A stretch of 64,000 bases of DNA. Source: Fidelibacterota bacterium (GTDB taxonomy: Bacteria > Fidelibacterota > UBA8477 > JABMPR01). Shown in pieces: positions 24,668-51,652 of the stretch (positions are counted from its first letter, which is position 1; every line of letters begins with the position of its first letter). The position numbers and the translations under genes were made by a program. The notes beneath the pieces were generated by a model. It saw nothing but the letters and a program-made list of their open reading frames with translations, ran no database searches and was not told the origin of the DNA. The stretch is from assembly GCA_016845065.1 (NCBI GenBank), contig JAERTG010000032.1:106427-170426 (forward strand). Direction: 5' to 3'.

Positions 24668-25513
24668 CTATTTCAGCAGAAGAATTTTTCTCGTATGGAG
24701 ACCGCCATCATGAAACAGGGTAGCCATGTAGACACCGCTGGGCATCTCAGCACCTGATTCATCCCTGGAGTTCCAGTTTATCTGGTGTGAGCCTGCTGAC
24801 AAATCAACATTGAGTAACCATCGGACGGCCCTACCCTGATTATCAAACACTGAAAGTGTCACTGAGCCTGATCGAAGGAGCTCAAATTGGATTGTCGTTT
24901 CCGCATTAAATGGGTTGGGATACACTGTGAGCAAGTTGTGTCGTTCCGGTTGTTCTAACACCTCTTCCACCTCAGTGGCAAGGAGCAATTCGTCCAGTAA
25001 ACTTGTGATGGCTGATTCATTAAATCCAATCGAGTTGTATTGAACGATACCATTCATATCAATGATGGTATTGCGGGGGATAGCTCCATTCCCAAAATCA
25101 CTCCAGATATTTGACCCACGATCGTCAGCCACCGGATATGAAGCTCCCAGACTAGCCCAGGCTTGACAGTTCAATGAGTTAAAATCGCTACCCAGGGATA
25201 CAATCAGGAGACCTTCATCGGCTCTCGATTGGTGAAACGATTCCAGGTGCGGAACCTCCGCACGACAGCTGCCTCACCAGGATGCGAAAAAATTTAGCCA
25301 AACAACACGCGTGTCCGTTCCCTGATCTGGTTCCAGTAAACTGCCCAGCGTCACATTCCCAGCGTCATTTGCGCAAAAACTCACAACCTTGTCTCTGGTG
25401 GTCTGACTTATTGTTTGCCCCACACTGTATTGACCAATAGCCACGCTTCCTAGAAAGTGTATACTGAAGACCAGGGCTAGGATAGAAAACTTGGTCGCTT
25501 TTTTATTATACAT
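24668..25513 (-). CDS. Secreted TlpA-like thioredoxin, probable selenoprotein (in-frame TGA as Sec80)
   Basis: The frame reads 79 residues, then TGA at 25274-25276, then 201 more residues. Read through, the site is FFASW-U-GSC-RAEVPHLESF, exactly where TlpA/redoxin proteins have W-C-x-x-C. The cis-proline segment GAIPRNTIIDMNG follows. A signal peptide (MYNKKATKFSILALVFSIHFLG) directs export, and residues ~198-281 are a type IX-like sorting domain (YPNPFNAETTIQF). A GGAG site precedes the ATG. A SECIS-like hairpin starts 10 bases after the TGA. I therefore annotate a selenocysteine-containing extracytoplasmic thiol-disulfide oxidoreductase. The alternative is a pseudogene by a nonsense change, but the intact downstream frame argues against decay. 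Confidence 0.8.
25247..25276 (-). promoter_or_regulatory. UGA codon and bacterial SECIS-like hairpin
   Basis: On the minus strand the TGA (25276-25274) is followed by 10 bases and then a perfect 6-bp stem GUGCGG / CCGCAC closing the loop AGGUU (hairpin at 25263-25247). The spacing and the AGGU apical loop match E. coli fdhF, where a 17-base hairpin with loop AGGUCU begins about 11 bases after UGA. The bulged U of fdhF is absent here. Confidence 0.75.
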
Positions 25514-47128: not shown

Positions 47129-50100
47129 TTATTGGCTGTGCAATAGCTCCAGCAGGAGGGTCGCATCCAAAACATTCAGATCCCCATCAAAATTGAGGTC
47201 AGCGCTCTCTGCTTGTACTTCTGTAGGTGTTTCCAGGTGAACAATAAAATCAATAAGTGCCGTTAGGTCTTGAATGTTGATTATATAGTCGGCGTTTGCA
47301 TCTCCCAGAGGTGGAGTACCATGGATGACTTCCAGATGAATATCTATGGGTATTTCACTCAGATTCCCAGCATTTGATGTGAGGACAAGGGGTACTGAAA
47401 AGCTACCCTGATTCAAGCTTCTGGTATCTGTTTCAACTCGGAAAATACTGGATTCTCCAGGGGCTATCACATCTGTCCATTGATTTACACGGAGCCAGCT
47501 GGATTGACGATGAATGAGAATAGCAGTTCCATCTCCAATAGAGTTTGGGCTATTGTAACAAATTTGAAGGCCTTTGTTTTTGAAAACATTCTGAATCCCT
47601 ACTGTGGAACTGGTGACGATTCCCTCCATTTCCAAATACTGTAATATCATATTCCCGTTTGCCACAAGGATCAGTTGGAAAGTATGCCGATCATCTGTTC
47701 CGAATTTTGGAAAGTTATCCCAGGTGATCACAGTGGTGTCTTGCCCATTGGTCCATAAGTAGGGTTTCCCCTGCACACCATCATTATTGTTTAAATCGTC
47801 CCACCAGACTGCGATTAAGGCAGGAGGAGCTGCTCCATTTGGCAACGGCAGGTTGCTCCATGGATATTCTGCTGATGTGAATGAAATCGACCCGTTGCTG
47901 CTAAGCATAAAATCTGTATAGGTTTCAGAAAAAAATGGAAAATCGAACCCGATATCAAAAGGTCCTATAGATGAATCATCAGGATCTCCTGGGAAAATGA
48001 GTTCGTTTTCAGTCTCAGAGATGTCCAACCAATCAAACTGGGGTCCATGAGGATCATCCTGGTCAAGCCACTCGTAGTCGAATATATCACGAAGCGAACT
48101 ACTATAAAACTCGCCAGTTGGTTCGGCTCCACCCTTGATGAAATTGTATCCTGCAAGCGGATTATCAGCTGGAGTAAGATCGACCTCTTCTGGTGATACT
48201 ATATTGTATACCAGGTCTGAACCACCAGAATTCACAATCACAATAGAATCCGAATCAGTAGACCAGGGATTTTGGACGAAACTTAAAGCGGATTGGCTAA
48301 GGGTAATTTCAGGAGCCTCGAATCGCTGTCCCCGTTCTGTCGTGAACAGCAAAGCCTGACCAGATCTTATTTCCCCGAGGCTTGGGTCCGCAAGGTTATT
48401 AAAACTTGCCTGTATTCCCGTGGAATAATCAGGTGATTCAATTCCAGATGTGGAAAAATTTGCAAAAGTATCATAGTTGAAATAATCCTTATACTGAAAC
48501 TTGATAAGATTATCACCACTTTCAGTGGGATGACTGTCCAGACTATAGATAATCACCTGAAAATTAAGGGATGACCCCACTTCCATATTGCTCATCATGG
48601 CCCATTCAATAATGAGTTGATCGACCGATATGAAAAAACTAACACCTCCGGGCTGGGTGATTAAATCATCCCAAAAAGGTGCGATCATGGCTGTAGGTCC
48701 TGAAGCAGATGGGATGACACGATTATAGAAACTAACCTCTGGTGAATGTCCCATTGCAAGCCAACCATTTGAGCAAATAGTTATATCGTCATAGGATTGT
48801 CCGTAGTAATTCACATCAAAAGGCAAATTAAAATTGACCGTCTTATCATCCTCTTCATAATCATCATGAAGACCTAAGCGAGCGCCAACTCCCCCGTAAT
48901 TAGGATCAATTTCGATCCAATCATACTCTGGAGCCATGGAGTAGGAGACATCCTGATTGTCAAATACTCGATATCCATAGTTATCTCGAGTCGAGGGTGA
49001 AAAACGATTGATCTCTTCCACTATTATCTCAGTCCGTAGGGTATCCACTCGCCCGGCAGTTTCTCCTACAAATACCAGTGGTATGGCTTCCCCTGCGAAT
49101 ATCTGATCTGAGAGTTGCAGAAAGAATGTGCCTTCAGTCTCTACCGTTTGATCCCAATTGATAATAGGCAACTCTTGCACTCCATTACCAGAAGAAACCA
49201 GATCGCTATCCTGAAATTCCAGCGTCATATGTTGTGATGCCGCGCCTCCCCTATTTTCCACCAACAGTCGGATATCTAAAGAATCCCCAGCTATGAGCTC
49301 ACCTGTCTCAATGAGCACATCTGTGATTTGCAGATCAGGAGATTGGATTGGAAACTGCTTATGCCATACCAATACCTCTAAACCAAGATCTACATCAATA
49401 CTTAAGTCTATGATCTCGCCATGACGACAATTTGCAGCTACTTCGAAAGAAAAGAGATCACTCAGGTTAAGTGTTTGCCCCGAGTGAAGAGATGGTATGA
49501 TGAGGATCGAATCTATAAGATTCACGTATTCAGAACTGGAATGGAGTGAAAGCACTATATTTTCCAGAGTCATGTCCCCATTAGCAATTGTCAGGTCCAG
49601 ATTATGCAAGCCACCTGCTTCAATTACACCGCCCTGGGCAATACTCCACACCTCATAGCTTAATGGGTTCTGAGAAGAGCCAATGGGGATACTGGTTAAT
49701 ATCGGGTTCATGTTTTTCCCGGTAATTGTTAATAAGAGCTCGGTAGATTCACCTGCAGTGAAGGGCAAAAAGACTGTTCCGGTGACATCTGTGAGTAAAC
49801 CATTACCATTTTCAGAGTTACTCACAAAAACAAAGGCATCTTGAATAGGCATACCTGCCTCATCCTCCACCGTTATGACGACGTGGTCGTCATCTTGATT
49901 CAAACTATCAGGAAAGTCTGCTACGAGCATTTTTGGTGTATCCGTCCAGATAGCCATCCCCGGGTCGCCTAAAATATTATAAACATTCTGGTAGAATTCT
50001 GCAGACTGACCAAAGGGTAGAAATTCAGATTGATGGTAATTTCTCCATAGTTCCAACTTGGCGTACCCCAGTGCTGGACCCAACTCATTCATCCCCAGGT

Positions 50101-51652
50101 CAAACAGACCTGAATACAAGGCGATATCGATGACATTATTAAACTGGGTGTGAGTGTGCACTTCACTGGGACCGATAAATGCCACTGCACCTTTGGGAAC
50201 TGAGGAGGTACCAGCCCGAAGCCATTTTTCACCAAAAACGGGATCAACTGGAGCGGCATAATTACCACCACCGCAAACAATGCTGGTCAGGATGGGGAGT
50301 TTGTGACCATTATACAAATCTTCAATATGAGAATTATAAAAATAGGGTCCGATCCAATGGTCCCAGGCTCCCAGTCCTCGGTAATTTACGAATCCGACTC
50401 CGTTGTTAATTGGCGTGCTGATTCTGGAGAGACTAGACTGCATGGGATAATAGGCAGTATCCACCTGGGTGAATCCATTCTCAATTAATTTCCGACTGAC
50501 CCAATTGTTGACGTGTTGAGTAGATATGGCAGCGGTAACTGTGCCCACCATCAGCGCTCTTTTAAACCAACCTGGATCATCCAGGAGTGGCTGACTTTCA
50601 TAGGATAAAATTTTACTCATCACCACAACCAACTCACCAATAGTATCAACTGAAAGTCTACCAATCCAGGCTTCGGGGAAACTGTCATCTCCCTCAAGCA
50701 AAACATATGGATGATCGGTTACCAGGGCTTCGTTATCAGGGTTGTATACATAGAATCCACCAATCCCCCTGTCCTCATCTCCAATGAGTAAAACATATTT
50801 CGGCGGATCATTCCAGGTATCATAAGCCTCCTGGATATAGGCTTTTATGGCTGTAGGAGTTTGACCTGCTACATCGGTTGATGTAACGGTAACAGGATGT
50901 CCCTTGCGTCGTTTCCAGTCCACCAGATAAGTCAGATAAGGTTCAAAGAGAGGTGGGGTGATAATCAGATAGTGCCCCAGCTGTGTGTAGATTTCATTAT
51001 TGGGAATAATTGAAAGGATTGAAGCATTTTCATTTGTCTGATCATCGCTAATTGGTAACACCCCGCTTATCTCAATTACAATGTGATCTGGAATACTTAC
51101 TTCCCGCCGAGAAAAGTCGACACCCAATGGTGAGATGCTGAGTGGCAGAAAAATTTCCCCCATCAAAGTGACGGGTTCTCCGATTTGCACATCCATTTCC
51201 CTGGTTAATTCGACCCTGGACCAGTCAAAATCCTGAATGATTTGTGACGGGTCGCTTTCTCGCTGACCCTGGGGGGTTTGTTTTAGTGTGCTTATACGAA
51301 TCGGATGGCTGTTGTAGCTAAGGATAGTTGCTTGGGGATCGTTGAGTAAGGAAATGGGTATGAGCTCAGTGAAAATAGGAAGAGCAACATCTCCTGCACG
51401 GCCTGCCAAACCATAGCCAGCTTGGTGAATCAGATCGGGATGAGTCAACAATTTTGACCATTGCTCATCCTGAACTTGACTGAAGTCAAGGTTTACAACA
51501 ACAGATTCTTCAGAAAAATTTAGCGTAGTACGCGGACGCATTTTATCCAAAGCCTGCAGGTTTGAAGCAAGAGTTATAAATAGAAATATACAGGATCTAA
51601 TTGCTGATAGATTCCTGAAATAAGATATGCGATTTGCTATATGAGTACTCAT
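47129..51652 (-). CDS. Giant secreted C25-like (gingipain-type) peptidase with dockerin-like C-terminus
   Basis: A 1507-residue protein with a signal peptide near residues 15-35. Residues ~220-560 resemble peptidase C25: YLIITPPLFEPYL, YVLLIGDED, then VGFVNYRGLGAWDHW and, about 30 residues later, SIVCGGGNYA with the putative nucleophile Cys near residue 460. The histidine of the usual G-H-G motif is replaced (GLG), though a His follows in DHW. A long beta-sandwich region contains two copies of a 'D(Y/F)DWI-Dxx...F..SNG' domain (near 940-1080 and 1220-1380). The last 60 residues form a dockerin-like pair of calcium loops (GDANADYIINIQDLTALIDF, DLNFDGDLNVLDATLLLELL). It is a surface or secreted protease; activity is uncertain. 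Confidence 0.8.
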   Translation of the reverse strand: MSTHIANRISYFRNLSAIRSCIFLFITLASNLQALDKMRPRTTLNFSEESVVVNLDFSQVQDEQWSKLLTHPDLIHQAGYGLAGRAGDVALPIFTELIPISLLNDPQATILSYNSHPIRISTLKQTPQGQRESDPSQIIQDFDWSRVELTREMDVQIGEPVTLMGEIFLPLSISPLGVDFSRREVSIPDHIVIEISGVLPISDDQTNENASILSIIPNNEIYTQLGHYLIITPPLFEPYLTYLVDWKRRKGHPVTVTSTDVAGQTPTAIKAYIQEAYDTWNDPPKYVLLIGDEDRGIGGFYVYNPDNEALVTDHPYVLLEGDDSFPEAWIGRLSVDTIGELVVVMSKILSYESQPLLDDPGWFKRALMVGTVTAAISTQHVNNWVSRKLIENGFTQVDTAYYPMQSSLSRISTPINNGVGFVNYRGLGAWDHWIGPYFYNSHIEDLYNGHKLPILTSIVCGGGNYAAPVDPVFGEKWLRAGTSSVPKGAVAFIGPSEVHTHTQFNNVIDIALYSGLFDLGMNELGPALGYAKLELWRNYHQSEFLPFGQSAEFYQNVYNILGDPGMAIWTDTPKMLVADFPDSLNQDDDHVVITVEDEAGMPIQDAFVFVSNSENGNGLLTDVTGTVFLPFTAGESTELLLTITGKNMNPILTSIPIGSSQNPLSYEVWSIAQGGVIEAGGLHNLDLTIANGDMTLENIVLSLHSSSEYVNLIDSILIIPSLHSGQTLNLSDLFSFEVAANCRHGEIIDLSIDVDLGLEVLVWHKQFPIQSPDLQITDVLIETGELIAGDSLDIRLLVENRGGAASQHMTLEFQDSDLVSSGNGVQELPIINWDQTVETEGTFFLQLSDQIFAGEAIPLVFVGETAGRVDTLRTEIIVEEINRFSPSTRDNYGYRVFDNQDVSYSMAPEYDWIEIDPNYGGVGARLGLHDDYEEDDKTVNFNLPFDVNYYGQSYDDITICSNGWLAMGHSPEVSFYNRVIPSASGPTAMIAPFWDDLITQPGGVSFFISVDQLIIEWAMMSNMEVGSSLNFQVIIYSLDSHPTESGDNLIKFQYKDYFNYDTFANFSTSGIESPDYSTGIQASFNNLADPSLGEIRSGQALLFTTERGQRFEAPEITLSQSALSFVQNPWSTDSDSIVIVNSGGSDLVYNIVSPEEVDLTPADNPLAGYNFIKGGAEPTGEFYSSSLRDIFDYEWLDQDDPHGPQFDWLDISETENELIFPGDPDDSSIGPFDIGFDFPFFSETYTDFMLSSNGSISFTSAEYPWSNLPLPNGAAPPALIAVWWDDLNNNDGVQGKPYLWTNGQDTTVITWDNFPKFGTDDRHTFQLILVANGNMILQYLEMEGIVTSSTVGIQNVFKNKGLQICYNSPNSIGDGTAILIHRQSSWLRVNQWTDVIAPGESSIFRVETDTRSLNQGSFSVPLVLTSNAGNLSEIPIDIHLEVIHGTPPLGDANADYIINIQDLTALIDFIVHLETPTEVQAESADLNFDGDLNVLDATLLLELLHSQ

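Follow-up and report, generated by a model that had tools for sequence, protein, structure and literature searches.

A predicted selenocysteine-containing TlpA-like protein with a type IX sorting domain in a Fidelibacterota bacterium

A thioredoxin-like gene of an uncultured marine bacterium of the Fidelibacterota (Marinimicrobia) contains a TGA codon where the first cysteine of its active site is expected. Is this codon read as selenocysteine (Sec), and if so, where would the protein act and what would it do? The gene lies on the minus strand of a 64,000-nucleotide stretch of DNA (positions 106,427 to 170,426 of contig JAERTG010000032.1, GenBank assembly GCA_016845065.1), and this whole stretch is referred to as the window. 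An earlier reading of the window by a model, termed the original prediction, had proposed that TGA replaces the first Cys of W-C-x-x-C, that the frame continues for 201 residues beyond it, that a hairpin resembling a Sec insertion sequence (SECIS) follows it, and that the protein ends with a sorting domain. The analysis described here supports, with good confidence, the reading that the gene encodes a TlpA/ResA-type protein in which UGA is predicted to specify Sec, and which is likely exported by the type IX secretion system (T9SS) and likely acts as a thiol-disulfide oxidoreductase at the cell surface.

Decoding of the UGA codon

When TGA is translated as Sec (U), the frame runs from 25513 down to 24668 in 281 codons, with a single in-frame TGA at codon 80, the active-site context FFASW-U-GSCRAE and 201 residues after this codon. 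A mechanical list of open reading frames contains only the 168-codon piece after TGA. The features on which the decoding depends are as follows.

24668..25513, minus strand: selenoprotein gene of 281 codons including one in-frame TGA (translation with TGA as U; genus orthologues with the same single TGA)
25274..25276, minus strand: UGA codon, predicted Sec80, first position of U-x-x-C (30 homologues: 21 with TGA, 9 with Cys)
25265..25267, minus strand: Cys83, the U-x-x-C partner (invariant in 28/28 aligned sequences)
25247..25263, minus strand: SECIS-like hairpin GUGCGGAGGUUCCGCAC, 17 bases, seven pairs, apical GGU (covariation in the TGA copies, fdhF-like placement)
24668-24670, minus strand: stop codon TAG (translation with TGA as U)

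Homologues were searched for in 245 genomes of the phylum, with the best 10 matches scored per genome, and counts derived from this search are lower bounds. An orthologue with 53-80% identity is present in 11 of 18 genomes of the same genus, and the other seven give only much weaker matches among the matches listed. All 11 orthologues contain exactly one TGA, no other stop and no frameshift. When the codons are aligned, TGA occupies one column in 12 of 12 genus copies (that of the window and its 11 relatives), none of which has a broken frame. At this column the 30 best fetched homologues have TGA (21) or Cys (9) and nothing else, and the 18 that lie beyond the genus are evenly divided between the two (TGA 9, Cys 9). 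Selenoproteins typically reveal themselves by such an exchange of Sec and Cys at a single position. A tree built without this residue, with only residues 1-190 of L042, implies at least three changes of state. Among the distant matches of the phylum search, G117:C1 has a TAG and G083:C8 has two TGAs. The alignment of all forms (A1) contains 28 of the 30 fetched homologues (without L038 and L042), and two further alignments (A4 and A5) contain all 21 TGA copies and all 9 Cys copies. The median ratio of nonsynonymous to synonymous substitution rates (dN/dS) is 0.181 before TGA (34 usable of 55 pairs) and 0.139 after it (33 of 55), L024 and the pairs with saturated or undefined dS being omitted. 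Purifying selection acts on both sides of TGA.

The hairpin was predicted to be 17 bases long, to begin 10 bases after TGA and to come close to the SECIS of fdhF in geometry, and these claims are borne out. It starts 10 nt past UGA, occupies 25263-25247 and encloses GGU with seven pairs. Across the 21 copies with TGA, 93.9% of the cells are paired and 17 cells are double-changed, as compared to 5.8 in shuffles; when the hairpin is slid along these copies, 31-60% of the cells are paired. Of five covariation measures, three are higher than in any of 500 shuffles, and the remaining two are equalled or exceeded in 27 and 77 of them. RNAalifold recovers the same helix unaided. Pairing drops to 50.0% of the cells in the 9 Cys copies, close to the shuffle level (47.6%). 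At least six of the seven pairs are formed at the same spacing after TGA in 12 of 12 genus copies and after other codons in 60 of 3229 cases. Elsewhere, in 269 aligned codon columns tested, the hairpin never appears in all 12 copies, and in one column it appears in 11. AGGU begins 16 nt after UGA in this gene and 17 nt after UGA in E. coli fdhF, and in each of the two predicted folds GGU lies in the apical loop. No SECIS family of Rfam matched at the hairpin site with either strict or lax thresholds.

Other observations on the hairpin are less clear-cut. The 61-base stretch around it folds on its own only modestly better than its shuffles (z -1.65, 12 of 200 being as good), and it is the comparative evidence that carries the case for the hairpin. 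Three of the 21 TGA copies have weak hairpins (three pairs in L030, five in L028 and L032), and two Cys copies (L036 and L037) also form five pairs. For a Glu in the stem, 20 of 21 TGA copies use GAG, whereas all 9 Cys copies use GAA, but part of this contrast may reflect background codon use, because the overall use of GAG also differs between the two groups of genes (142/321 in TGA genes and 27/134 in Cys genes).

The original prediction named selA, selB, selC (tRNA-Sec) and selD as the genes to look for, and all four are found in the assembly above their cut-offs: tRNA-Sec with 72 bits (cut-off 47), called tRNA-SeC with anticodon TCA by ARAGORN, SelB with 347.9 bits (242.25), SelA with 517.7 bits (267.9) and SelD with 370.2 bits (125). 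The selD gene itself contains an in-frame TGA. The selB and selA genes lie near each other on G000:C130 (L009, L012, L064), with a gene for a 421-aa membrane protein, Nramp-like by eye, between them. Among 20 relatives that carry the TGA gene, tRNA-Sec exceeds its cut-off in 18 (not in G226 and G063) and SelB matches at E <= 1e-90 in 16 (not in G225, G062, G189 and G190); none of the 20 lacks both. SelB exceeds its cut-off in 166 of the 245 phylum genomes. As judged from the codon, the hairpin and these genes, UGA is nearly certainly decoded as Sec.

The genome is a draft of 4.05 Mb in 182 contigs, with 93.05% completeness and 4.28% contamination. It encodes 12 Redoxin proteins over the cut-off, of which three contain one TGA: the present protein, an LVIVD fusion and a peroxiredoxin on contig C9. 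When the window was scanned for frames with a single TGA and more than 40 residues on each side, 14 places were found, and a redox motif is recognisable by eye only at 25274. Close relatives of the gene occur in ten genome records, nine of them of Candidatus Neomarinimicrobiota, with three further distant matches (Sphingobacterium). Of the plasmid records, 43 matched, none covering 80% of the query, and the best 5 of these 43 are distant TlpA/ResA-like sequences.

Fold and predicted reaction

The redox domain and its conserved residues are placed as follows.

25016..25393, minus strand: TlpA/ResA-like thioredoxin-fold domain, about residues 41-166 (Pfam; alignment; AlphaFold model and PDB comparison, with Cys for Sec)
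25373-25375, minus strand: Cys47, near-invariant (alignment)
25166-25168, minus strand: Cys116, invariant (alignment)
25076-25078, minus strand: Pro146, invariant (alignment)

The AlphaFold model, built with Cys for Sec from 28 sequences, has a pLDDT of 79.9 and a pTM of 0.56. In the comparison with PDB, the highest Z score is given by DsbE of Chlorobium (18.3, rmsd 2.1 over 137 residues), followed by a Bacteroides disulfide isomerase (17.7); a Bacillus thiol-disulfide oxidoreductase and ResA score about 17. The top Foldseek match is DipZ, but it spans two domains with an rmsd of 18-19; thiol-disulfide oxidoreductases come next. The NCBIfam cut-offs for ResA and DsbE are missed (49.9 of 170 and 44.3 of 123.15, respectively). 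Cys47 and Cys116, which lie outside the active site, are kept in Sec and Cys homologues alike and are candidates for a structural or a relay disulfide bond. Pro146, which does not vary in the alignment, agrees with the cis-Pro segment that was proposed for this protein, its cis conformation being presumed.

It is possible, though improbable, that the Sec protein acts at the surface mainly as a peroxidase of the Redoxin/PrxQ-like type, destroying peroxides. The Pfam matches to this domain are Redoxin (56.4 bits, cut-off 26.6) and AhpC-TSA (38.8, cut-off 26), and peroxiredoxins reach Z scores of 15-17 in the structure comparison, tied with ResA. The peroxidatic motif has Thr or Ser three residues ahead of the catalytic residue. 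This Thr/Ser is absent from the 12 genus copies, in which the residue is Ala, Glu or Gly. The structural neighbours and the missing peroxidatic signature therefore favour thiol-disulfide exchange, in which Sec80 would be the nucleophile and Cys83 the resolving partner.

Export by the type IX system

The two ends of the protein contain the candidate export signals.

25433..25513, minus strand: putative N-terminal export signal, about residues 1-27 (by eye; the 12 genus copies begin in a comparable way)
24680..24925, minus strand: T9SS type A C-terminal sorting domain, residues 197-278 (TIGR04183, 45.3 bits; PF18962, 31.2 bits)

The N-terminal pattern consists of a positive start, a hydrophobic core and small residues ahead of Q28-Y29, where the cleavage site is placed by eye. 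The proposed sorting domain at the other end is confirmed by TIGR04183, the T9SS type A sorting domain (45.3 bits, cut-off 23), and by Por_Secre_tail (PF18962; 31.2 bits, cut-off 27), and most of the family has an LLLK-like C-terminal end. The type IX part of the proposal is likewise upheld by the genome. It contains the translocon protein SprA in a 2208-codon frame (SprA_N, 121.5 bits, cut-off 27) and the sortase PorU (682.8 bits, cut-off 420). No SprA match was found in 14 control genomes, and SprA is present in 19 of the 20 TGA-carrying relatives. The PorU search, in which 51 of 117 candidates were scored, found 50 other places, 48 of which match the tail part of the profile, and the protein thus seems to belong to a large set of T9SS cargo. 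These results make export to the cell surface via T9SS likely. The window also encodes, at 47129-51652, a large C25 (gingipain-type) peptidase with nidogen-like and dockerin domains; as a candidate for the sortase it was rejected, since it scores only 40 bits against the PorU cut-off of 420.

Slightly less probable than a surface peroxidase is a Sec protein that is kept in the periplasm or on the inner side, with a tail that is an Ig/FlgD-like domain without export function. Three observations speak for it and thereby against export: FlgD_ig matches the tail with 36.3 bits, above its curated cut-off; one genome with the gene, G236, gives no SprA match; and the PorU profile also matches two control genomes, below its cut-off. 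They are opposed by the score of TIGR04183 on the same tail, by PorU and the 48 further places that match its tail part, by SprA in nearly all carriers and by the LLLK-like end.

Two further explanations concern the codon itself and are far less probable. That UGA is read as another amino acid in a reassigned code, or by general readthrough, is consistent with a frame that is open whichever way TGA is read, but was rejected as very improbable: TGA terminates 7 of the 41 window frames taken as genes, the SelA and SelB frames contain no inner stops, the genome has a tRNA-Sec with anticodon TCA, and the residue is exchanged only with Cys among the 30 fetched homologues. That TGA is a plain stop in a pseudogene, or a sequencing error, with the 3' part decaying or translated alone, can practically be dismissed, although 25 of 31 protein-database matches (P0001-P0025, one being the window's own) begin past TGA, at query residues 86-128, some of them under the name 'T9SS type A sorting domain-containing protein', since it is contradicted by the same TGA and open frames in 12 of 12 genus copies, by a dN/dS of about 0.14 after TGA, by the covarying hairpin and by Cys in 9 homologues. 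The unrelated frameshifts and stops that the original prediction had named as the mark of a pseudogene are not found in the 11 relatives.

For the preferred reading, a surface thiol-disulfide oxidoreductase with Sec, the following course is proposed. SelD and SelA would provide for the charging of tRNA-Sec, and SelB bound to the hairpin would insert Sec at residue 80; the components and the signal are seen in the sequence. A Sec-type signal would lead the protein to the periplasm, where the thioredoxin fold would form with Sec80 and Cys83 as redox pair. The SprA translocon would then recognise the type A domain, and PorU would cleave it and attach the protein to the outer surface, by analogy with the route described for T9SS of Bacteroidota, the machinery and the tail of which are both encoded here. 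Outside the cell, the selenol would attack disulfides or other oxidised groups, and Cys83 would resolve the selenenylsulfide.

Related proteins, known systems and implications

Beyond the window, its contig encodes a second Sec-type protein (C32:12526-14535; L069, G000). It consists of a propeller, an Ig-like domain, a TlpA domain with W-U-P-V-C and a C-terminal tail. Its copy in G225, which is 81% identical, matches LVIVD, AhpC-TSA/Redoxin and Por_Secre_tail (40.1 bits, cut-off 27). TGA-bearing long homologues of this LVIVD-TlpA type occur in 4 of 19 genus genomes (G000, G225, G232 and G239), and the frame of G239 stops before the tail. In other families of the phylum, a long LVIVD-TlpA-like gene adjoins a short TlpA gene, as read in G082, G129 and G189 and as seen from coordinates in G111, G027, G125, G131, G026 and G112. 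The tail of the G189 long protein lies below the Por_Secre_tail cut-off (20 of 27) and above that of FlgD_ig. Where the short protein has Cys, a TGA-bearing long neighbour is present, by coordinates, in at least 7 of 9 genomes (not in G070 and G060). In L025, L026, L027, L033, L034, L036 and L037, the short TlpA protein has Cys and the LVIVD-TlpA-like neighbour usually keeps TGA; this pairing was confirmed by reading in G082 and G129. It is as if one member of the pair were held as Sec. A third form, in G148 of another family (L067:2140-3720, 527 aa), combines TlpA with W-U-P-S-C, thrombospondin type 3 repeats and a T9SS tail.

On contig C9 of the window's genome (L086, G000:C9), a peroxiredoxin frame with an in-frame TGA (TFVUATE) lies beside a rhodanese/ferritin-like frame with TGA (VIYUAIGG), both named by eye. 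The contig may derive from contamination. Selenoproteins of both kinds, peroxiredoxins and rhodaneses, are already known (listed in PMC13188914).

That Sec can stand at a thioredoxin active site was stated beforehand and agrees with Table 1 of a 2026 review (PMC13188914), which contains a Redoxin family selenoprotein (PF08534, UxxC), a Prx-like thiol:disulfide oxidoreductase (PF00578, UxxC/UxxU) and a thiol-disulfide isomerase-like selenoprotein (cd02966, UxxC). This review also lists outer-membrane selenoproteins, and known selenoprotein families appear in PMC9312934 as well. The present protein resembles the tabulated UxxC families in its thioredoxin fold and in predicted Sec as first residue of U-x-x-C, but differs from them, as far as the table describes them, in its T9SS tail and likely surface export, which the table does not mention; one of them could be a relative. 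The family NF041054 (ResA-like WAxxUGC motif protein) is, by name, Sec-containing and ResA-like, but its Sec motif, again by name, differs from that of this protein, which scores 24.9 bits, far under the cut-off of 300. ResA, DsbE and CcmG are membrane-tethered or periplasmic. These extracytoplasmic oxidoreductases have Cys-x-x-Cys without a sorting tail, whereas U-x-x-C and a tail are present here. The C-terminal TIGR04183 domain, with SprA and PorU in the genome, is shared with the T9SS type A cargo of Bacteroidota. FdnG is a periplasmic selenoprotein. Envelope selenoproteins listed in Table 1 of PMC13188914 are the MtrB/PioB-family outer-membrane barrel GSU2204, the multihaem ExtKL and a TonB-dependent receptor of the FCYXU type. 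The present protein would be like these and FdnG in having Sec outside the cytoplasm, but they have other folds. As far as we are aware, they also take other export routes.

Literature searches that covered titles, abstracts and some passages, with subscription papers mostly outside, found neither a selenoprotein with a T9SS tail nor a T9SS cargo with Sec. In the passages covered, PMC12016528 mentions selenoproteins and type IX secretion separately, PMC9012183 describes selA, selB and selD in another phylum, KSB1, and PMC8318568 names Marinimicrobia only as a recovered genome. In listing and abstract, PMC12593894 and PMC13055991 show one occurrence each of selenoprotein and T9SS terms. From its sequence and that of its relatives, the gene appears to encode a real selenoprotein of a kind (Sec redoxin/TlpA) already in print; the T9SS-tailed version did not turn up in these searches.

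The broader proposal, which is somewhat favoured, is that Marinimicrobia place a set of Sec enzymes outside the cell via T9SS, with at least three tailed Sec-thioredoxin architectures, two of them in this genome. These would be the first T9SS selenoproteins and would form a surface layer of selenols for redox chemistry outside the cell. Sec is expensive for a cell and oxidises readily, and the majority of known bacterial selenoproteins act intracellularly. The phylum Marinimicrobia is common in low-oxygen seas. If the proposal is true, there would be a redox task at the outer surface in low-oxygen seas that is worth the cost of Sec, which poses the question of the donor that re-reduces it, and the known cargo of T9SS would extend to selenoproteins. 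The 25 truncated database entries are a warning for annotation: the surface selenoproteome of this phylum is probably being missed, because the close entries hold only the piece after UGA.
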